Shown here one piece after another: positions 38,135 to 46,064 of a DNA stretch of 64,000 bases. A model generated the notes under the pieces. That model saw only the letters and a list, made by a program, of their open reading frames with translations, did not search any database and had not been told where the DNA came from. Each line of letters begins with the position of its first letter. Position 1 is the stretch's first letter. Origin of the DNA: Sphaerimonospora thailandensis (GTDB lineage: Bacteria > Actinomycetota > Actinomycetes > Streptosporangiales > Streptosporangiaceae); assembly GCF_016863115.1 (NCBI RefSeq), contig NZ_BOOG01000007.1:124001-188000 (forward strand), written 5' to 3'. Both the position numbers and the translations under genes were made by a program.

Positions 38135-38853
38135 TGACCGAAGCCGGCGTGGGGGCGCGGGCCGAGGTGCACCACCAGCACCGTGACGTGACCGGAGGCT
38201 GGTTACGTCCCGCGGTCTTCGGCGCGATGGACGGTCTGGTCTCCAACTTCGCCCTCATCGCGGGTGTGGCCGGCGGCACCGCCGACACCAAGATCGTCGC
38301 GTTGGCCGGTGTGGCCGGACTGGCCGCGGGGGCGTTCTCCATGGCCGGCGGCGAATACGTGTCGGTGGCCAGCCAGCGGGAGCTGGCTCTGGCCGAGCTG
38401 GACGTCGAACGCCGGGAGCTGGAGCGGCATCCCGAGGCCGAGGAGGACGAGCTCGCGCTGCACTACCAGGCGCGCGGCGTGGACCCGGAGACGGCCAGGG
38501 AGGTCGCCAGGCAGATCTCCCGTGACCCGGAGCAGGCGCTGGCGGTGCACGCCCGGGCCGAGCTGGGCATCGACCCGCACGACCTGCCCTCACCGGTCCT
38601 CGCCGCGGTCTCCTCGTTCCTCGCGTTCGCCGGGGGCGCGCTGATCCCGCTCCTGCCGTACCTGCTGGGTGTCCACGGCCTGTGGATCCCGGCCGCCGTC
38701 TCGATGGCGGCGCTGTTCGGCGCCGGGGTGCTGGTCTCCCGCGTGACCGCACGGAGCTGGTGGTTCAGCGGGCTGCGCCAGCTCGTCGTCGGCGGCGTCG
38801 CGGCAGCCCTCACCTGGGGGCTCGGCACGCTCATCGGGGCCGCCGCCCTATGA
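38131..38853 (+). CDS. VIT1/CCC1-family metal transporter
   Basis: A 240-residue protein of the vacuolar iron transporter family. Two helices precede a cytoplasmic three-helix segment rich in Glu (LDVERRELERHPEAEEDELA), which binds metal in plant VIT1, and three more helices follow. GAMDGLVSNFALIAGVAGG and AGAFSMAGGEYVSVASQ are the family motifs. Fe(II)/Mn(II) export is the family role; the substrate here is inferred. ATG overlaps the lgt stop. Confidence 0.92.
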   Translation: MMTEAGVGARAEVHHQHRDVTGGWLRPAVFGAMDGLVSNFALIAGVAGGTADTKIVALAGVAGLAAGAFSMAGGEYVSVASQRELALAELDVERRELERHPEAEEDELALHYQARGVDPETAREVARQISRDPEQALAVHARAELGIDPHDLPSPVLAAVSSFLAFAGGALIPLLPYLLGVHGLWIPAAVSMAALFGAGVLVSRVTARSWWFSGLRQLVVGGVAAALTWGLGTLIGAAAL

Positions 38854-39713
38854 CGAAGCGTAAGCGCCGGTCGTCCGCGCCGGCGGAGCGGTGGGGCCTC
38901 CTCGCGGAACTGGGGCTCACCGTCGGACAGCAGCGGATGGTGCTCTGGGGTGGTTTCGTCGTGGGGGTGCTGTTCGCGGCGCTGCTGCTCACCCTGATGA
39001 TCGACAAAGTGGCCGGCGGTGAGAGCCTGCCGGTCCGGGGAGCGGGAAGCCTCCTGGGCGAGGGGCGGCCGGAGAGCTACCAGGCATGGCCGTCTCCCAA
39101 GGAGTTCCGGCCGATCGCGGACCGGCAGGCCGACACCGCGCCGCTCACCACGAAAGAGGTCTTCGGCGCGCGTACGCTCACGGCCGGCAAGGTCACCCTG
39201 AAAAGGGTGGCGAGCCAGGCGGACCCCGGCTGCTCGGGCACGGTCTGGGGTGGCGACCTGACCGATCTGCTGGCCAAGTCCGGCTGCAGGCAGGCCGTCC
39301 GCGGTCTCTATCGGAGCGCTGACGGCGCCTACGTGGCCCAGTACACGCTGCTCGATCTGGCCGACGTGCGTGCGGCCAACGGAGTGGTCGACGAACTGGA
39401 GTCGATGCATCTGGGCGGCTGGACGCTGCCGCTGGAGCAGGGCCGGCAGGCCTTCCAGGGATACAGCGAGGCGAGCGGCCACGCGATGGGGCACTACGCG
39501 GGTCTGGTGTGGGTCGCCAGAGCCGACGGCGCCGAGCCGGGGGAACGCGACGACTTCGTCATGCTCGGCCTGGCCGTACGGGGCGTGGAGAAGGCGCTCT
39601 ATCGACGGATCGTCGCCGTCGCCGGGCTGCCCTCGGAGGCGCCGGGCCCAGGCTCGGCCGACGACAGGCCCCAGCCGCCCGAGCCCACCCCCACCGACCC
39701 GCCACCCCAATAA
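38850..39713 (+). CDS. Membrane-anchored hypothetical protein
   Basis: A 287-residue protein. It has a basic N-terminus, one helix at about 30-50 (LWGGFVVGVLFAALLLTLMI), then an extracytoplasmic domain with two cysteines (GCSGTVWGG, SGCRQAVRG) that may form a disulfide. The end is Pro-rich. I recognise no family. ATGA overlap with the VIT1-like gene places it at the end of the lgt group, next to thiol-oxidation genes. Confidence 0.8.
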   Translation: MTKRKRRSSAPAERWGLLAELGLTVGQQRMVLWGGFVVGVLFAALLLTLMIDKVAGGESLPVRGAGSLLGEGRPESYQAWPSPKEFRPIADRQADTAPLTTKEVFGARTLTAGKVTLKRVASQADPGCSGTVWGGDLTDLLAKSGCRQAVRGLYRSADGAYVAQYTLLDLADVRAANGVVDELESMHLGGWTLPLEQGRQAFQGYSEASGHAMGHYAGLVWVARADGAEPGERDDFVMLGLAVRGVEKALYRRIVAVAGLPSEAPGPGSADDRPQPPEPTPTDPPPQ

Positions 39714-39728
39714 CCCCGTGATCTTTGC

Positions 39729-41321
39729 CTAGCCCAGATGAGCGGCGGCCTCCAGCGTGTGGGAGACGGCGGCGGGGAGGGCGGCGACGCGGTGCAGCGG
39801 CGCCTCCAGGAGGGTGAGGTCGGCGGCCCAGGGGGCGGCCTCCTCGATCACGGTCCTGGCCTGCCTCTTGGTGAGCGAGGTGGCGCCCGTCAGCGCCTCC
39901 CGCCACACATTGGCGATCTTGCCGTGCGCGCTGTCCATGATCCGCCGGATGATCGCGTCGGCGCCGCCCGCCGCAGGCGCGAGCCGTACGGCGTCGAGCA
40001 CGTGCGCGTCGCCGCTGAGGCGTCGGGTGGTGAGGCCGTAGACGGGGGCGAGCAGCGCGGCGAGTGCGGGCCGGTCGTCCGGCGCGTGGGCGAGCAGCAC
40101 TCGCACGTGCCGCGCCCTGGTCGCGAGCAGCAGGCGGGGCAGCGCCGCCTCCAGCCCGGCCGGCACGGCGATCGCCACCCGCTCGGGATCGGCGGCGTAC
40201 GGCTTGGCCAGCAGCGTGGCGAGCCTCGTCCGGGGCGTCGCGAGGTCGCGCGGCCAGGCCCCGGCGAGCAGGCCCGGCTCGAACCCGTCCAGTGCCGCGG
40301 CGGCTCGCTCGGCGTCGTCCAGTTGTCCCGGCGCCGACTCGACGGCCTGGGGTCCCTGGGTGTAGATCGCGGTGGCGGTGTGATCCGCGGCCCGGTCGGT
40401 CAGCGCGGCGACGGCGGGCCAGGTCTTGGTGGTGGCCCTCAGGACGTAGAGATCCGCGGCACTGCCGATGGCTTCCGCCCCGTAATACCGGTTGAAATCC
40501 GGAAATAACGCTTCGTTTAGCAGATTTAGGGCAAGCAATGCCTTCTGCACTTTGAGTGCGAGCATGGGCGTCCGCTCGGACGCGCCGTACGCCACCAGAA
40601 TCCTGCCCTGCTCGCGATCGCGCAGCCCCTCGGCGGCCCGCGCGGCGAACAGTCCGATGCCCTCGGGCGTGTACGGCGGGTCGGTGATCGCCAGATCGGC
40701 CCAGCCGCGCAGCGACGGCGGCAGGCCGAGTCGCAGGTCGGCCCACCGGGTGCGGACGCCGAGCGCCTGCTCGTCGAGGTAGCCGAGGATCCGGTCGTCG
40801 ATGTCGGCCACCGCGACCTCCACCTCGGGGTGGAGCATCCGTACCGCCAGGGAGGTCAGGTCGTGGTCGCCGACACAGAGCAGGCGGGCCCCGGGCAGCC
40901 AGAACCGCTCGCCGAGCAGGAGCGCGCGGCGCAGCACGGTCTCGGCGGTCGCGGAGACGTGGTCGAGCACGTGCCGTCCCCGGGGGGCCTTGGCGATCAA
41001 CGTTTCCAGGCGTTCCAGGATGTCGCCATGTCGTTCCCTTAAGACCTCTATAGGCCAGTAGTCCGAAATGTCGCCAGATGTGGATGTATGATATTCTTTA
41101 AGTGAATTCACCGGATTGATACGGAAACGGTCGCCGCTGTGCTCGAGGGGGAGCGCACGCAGCAGCGTCTCGACCGTACGCCGCGACGTCGCGGTCTCCC
41201 GGACCAGATCGGCCAGGGTCCACCAGCGTCTGCCGGCCAGAAGCGCGACCGCCCTGCGGAGGCGGCGGCTGTCCACACCCGCCTTTGTCATCAGGTCGTC
41301 CAGCGCCTCGAATCCCGCCAT
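39729..41321 (-). CDS. BpsA/DUF43-like aminopropyl- or methyltransferase
   Basis: A 530-residue protein. Residues 20-60 form a winged helix. Residues 75-240 resemble branched-polyamine synthase (BpsA, DUF43): [50 protein letters not shown] and [10 protein letters not shown] at 213-222. BpsA of hyperthermophilic archaea makes N4-bis(aminopropyl)spermidine. Here the DPP motif continues with Tyr, as in amino-methyltransferases, where archaeal BpsA has Glu. The C-terminal ~230 residues are of no family I know. It may make a branched polyamine or methylate an amino group; the sequence does not decide. Divergent from gltB. Confidence 0.72.
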
Positions 41322-41507
41322 GCGGCAACTGTATCCGGGACGTCGCGAGTCGACGTTTCGCGAGTCGGCCTGGAAGGAATCTTCAAGTCGCGTGACCCTG
41401 AGGTGGCCGCCGGAAAACCGTGCGGTAGCCTCAACGCACTTTCACAACCGCAGCAGGGCCAACGTCGTCCCTCTGTTCCAGCAGAAGCAGACGACGGGAG
41501 TGACAAC

Positions 41508-46064
<4,557 letters not shown>

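Follow-up and report, generated by a model that had tools for sequence, protein, structure and literature searches.

The window, i.e. the whole stretch of 64,000 nucleotides that was analysed, comes from Sphaerimonospora thailandensis, a soil actinomycete, and contains a gene for a 530-residue BpsA-like protein, here referred to as A-type, that diverges from gltB. The locus has the following features, in which counterparts are those in BpsA of Thermococcus kodakarensis (Tk-BpsA):

39729..41321, minus strand: whole open reading frame, A-type BpsA-like protein of 530 residues, ATG at 41321
41322..41507: divergent intergenic region of 186 bp between the BpsA-like gene and gltB
41508..46064, plus strand: gltB, glutamate synthase large subunit, divergent neighbour
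41097..41321, minus strand: winged-helix-like N-terminal domain, residues 1-75
40416..41036, minus strand: BpsA_C/class I methyltransferase core, residues 96-302, from PF01861 and Foldseek
40959..40964, minus strand: D120-H121, DH in 58/58 A-type sequences
40860..40871, minus strand: G151-D152-H153-D154 (GDHD), counterpart of the catalytic GDDD of BpsA
40671..40682, minus strand: D214-P-P-Y217 (DPPY), D214 being the counterpart of the amine-activating Asp225 (PMC12979288)
40485..40496, minus strand: F276-N-R-Y279, Y279 being the counterpart of Tyr290 in the amine site (PMC12979288)
39732..40310, minus strand: C-terminal domain, residues 338-530, modelled as similar to the part of KsgA/Dim1 that runs from about strand beta3/4 into the C-terminal helical domain
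39891..39926, minus strand: residues 466-477, the most conserved stretch (12 residues) of the C-terminal domain

A-type orthologues with 62-83% identity have the same start codon or one that is a few codons off, and dN/dS between the window protein and five relatives is ~0.3 along the entire chain, indicating purifying selection. Thus, the open reading frame at 39729-41321 is a real gene. The closest named relative of the protein is from Sphaerimonospora mesophila (82% identity). The mechanically called open reading frame of gltB opens at 41139, while the true start is likely the ATG at 41508; gltB lies, as noted earlier, beside the BpsA-like gene. On the other side, the plus strand at 38850-39710 encodes a 287-residue membrane-anchored protein without a Pfam match that is conserved in the space between the BpsA-like gene and the VIT/lgt block, where it is often present twice.

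In 201 genomes of Streptosporangiaceae, a family studied for antibiotics, and with the type read from the profile-search table, 151 had profile matches, i.e. 140 had a full-length A-type protein and 11 had only a weaker, core-only type. In 397 genomes sampled from the phylum, full-length A-type proteins were seen outside this family in only G190 and G093, which both belong to a single other family (~37% identity). In a tree of the core, all A-type sequences lie on one side of a branch with 100/99 support and a long stem; the program flagged long branches. Both types are found together in G442 and G485, where speD adjoins the B-type copy (see below); A- and B-type therefore coexist and are not alternatives to each other. 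Some Microbispora orthologues (among L036, L037, L050 and L045) contain insertions of ~30-60 residues, and the Acrocarpospora pleiomorpha orthologue is probably frameshifted within its C-terminal domain.

The usual place of the A-type gene is between a trp-doxX-dsbA-lgt-VIT block and gltB-gltD. This synteny is present in Streptosporangium, Microbispora and Planobispora, and also in genera with only ~42% identity. In several members, however, the gene has been relocated and the gltB neighbourhood lost, and the new neighbours are unrelated. The earlier hint that gltB might provide amino nitrogen carries little weight, since the synteny is inherited and several members that keep the gene have lost it; for the same reasons, we rejected a functional link to gltB or to the other neighbours. 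The A-type gene behaves as a stand-alone gene, and its gltB neighbourhood mostly reflects inheritance.

BpsA branched-polyamine synthases come from heat-loving microbes. Residues 100-302 of the window protein matched PF01861 (BpsA_C, formerly DUF43) with 89.5 bits against a cut-off of 27 (E=2.7e-25), in agreement with the BpsA/DUF43-like core proposed in the earlier note. By sequence, the nearest solved structures in the PDB were P. furiosus 2QM3 (1.7e-13) and Tk-BpsA 5XNC (1.5e-11), and the A-type profile aligned residues 1-75 with the N-terminal domain of BpsA from both species. A structure comparison with Thermococcus BpsA, which had been suggested earlier, was made with a predicted whole-chain model (mean pLDDT 81.8); the best Foldseek match of this model was Tk-BpsA 5xnf (E=1e-9). 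The model has low confidence at loops 116-123 and 271-289; because these hold active-site motifs, no docking argument is made. BpsA_C was the sole Pfam family detected at E up to 10, and PF00398 (KsgA/Dim1) did not match anywhere on the chain; Pfam thus did not place the whole chain in a known methyltransferase family, an outcome that had been considered earlier. Similarly, PADLOC (anti-phage defence) and PHROGs (phage) profiles gave no match at E up to 1.

We aligned 58 A-type sequences with 10 B-type sequences (the speD-linked type of actinobacteria), 7 C-type sequences (shorter homologues; those that were checked are linked to speD or speE) and BpsA of P. furiosus and T. thermophilus (Pfu and Tt BpsA), anchoring the Tk-BpsA numbering on GDDD at 157-160 (chain offset 20). 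At the position of Asp159, all 58 A-type sequences have His (H153), whereas all 17 B- and C-type sequences have Asp, i.e. GDDD, and so do Pfu and Tt BpsA. Similarly, DH (H121) in the 58 A-type sequences stands in place of DQ in 17/17 B- and C-type sequences and in Pfu and Tt BpsA. In BpsA, Asp159 and Asp160 position and salt-bridge the aminopropyl group of dcSAM, while acidic residues at the C-terminus are the aminopropyl carriers (PMC12979288). Such an acidic tail is absent from A-type proteins, in which the chain runs into a folded domain and has no acidic cluster at its end. A-type proteins keep the counterparts of Asp160 (D154), Asp225 (D214) and Tyr290 (Y279); the counterpart of Glu259 depends on the alignment and is T251 by phmmer and E249 by multiple alignment. 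None of the SAM-site and DPPY residues varies among the 58 A-type sequences.

In the model, DPPY directly follows strand 210-213, the position of (D/N)PP(Y/F) at the end of beta4 in the class I fold. The earlier note had singled out DPPY as the key motif and as a mark of amino-methyltransferases rather than polyamine synthases. The motif is indeed present at 214-217; however, it does not have this diagnostic value because 10/10 B-type sequences share it (C-type sequences read DPPE). DPPY was therefore rejected as proof of methylation. The residues that tell A-type and the other BpsA homologues apart are H121 and H153.

BpsA requires dcSAM, which is the product of AdoMet decarboxylase (SpeD). 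In a profile search, neither speD (PF02675) nor speE for spermidine synthase (PF01564) was detected in the genome of the window (99.3% complete). Among the A-type genomes, 123/140 (88%) lack speD, while 9 of 11 genomes with the other type only have it (Fisher p=1.6e-6). An AdoMetDC-family gene does occur in 17 A-type genomes; among SpeD homologues, there are also decarboxylases of ornithine or arginine (PMC10407285). By contrast, speD lies ~0.3-0.9 kb from the GDDD-type gene in 10/10 genomes in which both were located. The genome of the window has one Orn/Lys/Arg decarboxylase, of family PF01276. Because AdoMet decarboxylase and spermidine synthase are both missing from this genome, the unusual branched polyamine suggested in the earlier note is an unlikely product.

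In the actinomycetes L055 and L056 (Streptomyces-type), L118, L119, L122 and L123, a GDDD BpsA homologue adjoins speD, and a zinc-ribbon-like stretch and a GNAT acetyltransferase are fused or adjacent to it, followed in some by a HAD-type protein. Moreover, a contig labelled 'Bacteriophage sp.' from human faeces (MT839461.1; L184:1120-2787), which may be bacterial and not phage, has a single 555-residue open reading frame combining a BpsA-like core, in which DQ, GDDD and DPPY are present, with zinc-ribbon-like and SpeD-like parts, the SpeD part being assigned by eye. The actinomycete loci suggest that organisms other than thermophiles have a route to branched or acetylated polyamines, which would go against the idea that BpsA occurs in thermophiles alone.

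The earlier note described ~230 extra C-terminal residues of no recognisable family, and this holds for sequence families in Pfam, NCBIfam and the PDB: the C-terminal ~190-230 residues had no match in Pfam, NCBIfam, PHROGs or PADLOC, and a PDB sequence-profile search with the domain gave nothing significant. In 247 genomes of the phylum, the single match to the domain outside A-type proteins was short and marginal (G123, E=2.7e-4, 37 positions). AlphaFold2 modelled the domain alone with a pLDDT of 96.6 and a pTM of 0.90. When this model was compared with the PDB using Foldseek, the first 23 matches were KsgA, Dim1, TFB1M and TFB2M or complexes containing them (best E=8.5e-5), and the KsgA-type matches were weak (TM-score 0.29-0.42, rmsd ~10-13 Å); a viral structure library gave no match under E=0.001.

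Using hhalign, we compared the domain with a profile of 45 actinobacterial KsgA/Erm-type sequences, with 33 neighbour-gene families as controls. The alignment with KsgA was colinear over 146 columns from the NLPY strand to the C-terminus (P=0.0045, probability 8%, range 8-13%); for the whole domain, the best of the 33 controls reached P=0.0089 in an alignment of 20 columns. With only the helical part, KsgA scored P=0.013 and was surpassed by one control (P=0.0022, 22 columns). In the profile alignment, the NLPY position of KsgA reads AVPAG in the window protein, and residues 466-477 are placed on the FxQRRKTLRxAL helix of KsgA. The domain is without the SAM-binding half of KsgA, is only slightly basic and evolves faster than the core. 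These model and profile comparisons are only suggestive of a relation to KsgA/Dim1. If the relation is real, the domain, which is without the SAM half, would bind substrate, pointing to RNA. Self-duplication of the core as the source of the domain was unsupported (hhalign P=0.24). The genome also holds two full-length PF00398 proteins, an RsmA-like protein and an Erm-like paralogue (G000:C49:7025-7792 and G000:C69:13535-14275).

In total, the A-type is a real, conserved and undescribed subfamily; it is distinct from plain BpsA and falls into no known methyltransferase family. Among the papers searched, none turned up under the name 'bis-aminopropyl spermidine synthase'. The possible methyltransferase activity raised earlier is kept as the best reading, judging from the exchanges at H121 and H153 and from the missing speD and speE. 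With a rough probability of 0.5, we propose that A-type proteins are SAM-dependent amine N-methyltransferases of BpsA-like ancestry (descended from BpsA or from a common ancestor), for which structured RNA would be the likeliest substrate. Asp159, which pairs with the amino group of dcSAM in BpsA, would be expected to repel the carboxylate of SAM; its replacement by an invariant His would admit ordinary SAM, and the methyl group would be transferred. With the amine-positioning residues D214, Y279 and probably E249 retained, the acceptor would still be an amine. The KsgA/Dim1-like C-terminal domain would take the place of the acidic carrier tail and bring the enzyme to its substrate, for which the exocyclic amine of a base in structured RNA (rRNA or tRNA) is the most likely candidate. 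We regard the switch of donor from dcSAM to SAM as highly probable and methylation of an amine as likely, the latter partly by likeness to plant putrescine N-methyltransferase (PMT); that the substrate is RNA has somewhat short of an even chance.

Plant PMT arose from spermidine synthase (SPDS), and in D. stramonium SPDS1, replacement of the aminopropyl-holding Asp (D103I) together with helper changes leads to SAM use and methyl transfer (PMC3725402). By analogy, Asp159 to His in A-type would be an equivalent exchange, made in a different family at the site with the matching function. More tentatively, A-type could represent a new family of RNA N-methyltransferases that joins a BpsA-like catalytic half, switched from dcSAM to SAM, to a KsgA/Dim1-related RNA-binding half; A-type proteins occur in a large actinomycete family and one distant actinobacterial lineage.

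A polyamine or diamine N-methyltransferase, which like plant PMT would use SAM to methylate a small aliphatic amine such as cadaverine or putrescine, would also fit the kept counterparts of Asp225, Tyr290 and probably Glu259, the PF01276 decarboxylase of the same genome and the descent of PMT from SPDS (PMC3725402). However, these amine-site residues would equally position a base amine, a small substrate needs no added 190-residue domain of KsgA-like fold, and the synteny shows no association with polyamine genes; we consider such an enzyme unlikely. That A-type is a BpsA for moderate temperature, i.e. an aminopropyltransferase making branched or modified polyamines, is very unlikely even though homology to BpsA spans the winged-helix domain and the core and the counterparts of Asp160, Asp225 and Tyr290 are retained: Asp159 is His in all members, the carrier tail is missing, speD and speE are absent from its own genome and speD from 88% of A-type genomes, and linkage or fusion to speD belongs to the GDDD type.

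DPPY or NPPY is also used by protein-glutamine methyltransferases of the HemK family. This shared motif, and a monocistronic gene with no RNA-related neighbours seen, would suit an N-methyltransferase of proteins (e.g. at a glutamine or lysine side chain) or of other small molecules, in which the C-terminal domain would serve docking or dimers; nothing positive points to a protein target, however, and the Foldseek neighbours of the domain are mostly RNA methyltransferases, which makes this rather improbable. Similarly, the winged-helix-like N-terminus and the precedent of KsgA relatives that turned into transcription factors (PMC2614427) are consistent with a catalytically dead SAM- or RNA-binding regulator resembling the KsgA-derived mitochondrial transcription factors; the invariance of the SAM-site and DPPY residues in 58/58 sequences argues for retained catalysis, and we hold a dead regulator to be very unlikely.

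If the reading as a SAM-dependent amine N-methyltransferase is true, A-type would give, in bacteria, a second example of a methyltransferase made from aminopropyltransferase-type machinery, with H153 as a simple switch residue, and if RNA is the substrate, Streptosporangiaceae would have an added RNA modification enzyme. Moreover, the PF01861 name 'branched-chain polyamine synthase' misleads for actinomycete proteins that seem unable to use the polyamine donor.

Compared with the N4-bis(aminopropyl)spermidine synthases (BpsA) of T. kodakarensis (5XNC/5XNF), P. furiosus (2QM3) and T. thermophilus (6J27), A-type has in common the winged-helix-like N-terminal domain, the BpsA_C Rossmann core and the positions D152, D154, D214, N277 and Y279; it differs by GDHD for GDDD, DH for DQ and DPPY for DPPE or DPVE, by the extra ~190-residue C-terminal domain in place of an acidic carrier tail, and by a host without speD. 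B-type proteins (Streptomyces-like L055/L056, L057 and L118-L124) are like A-type in the core and DPPY but keep DQ and GDDD and have a zinc-ribbon-like C-terminus, a GNAT domain in Streptomyces and an adjacent speD. KsgA/Dim1/RsmA resemble the A-type C-terminal domain from roughly beta3/4 as far as their C-terminal helical domain, as judged by structure search and a weak profile match; unlike them, A-type is without the SAM half, NLPY and PF00398, and catalysis would lie in the BpsA-like core. Plant PMT belongs to another family (SpeE, PF01564), and the likeness to it is functional, with no sequence relation claimed: in both, an aminopropyltransferase would have become a SAM methyltransferase through replacement of the Asp that holds the aminopropyl group.
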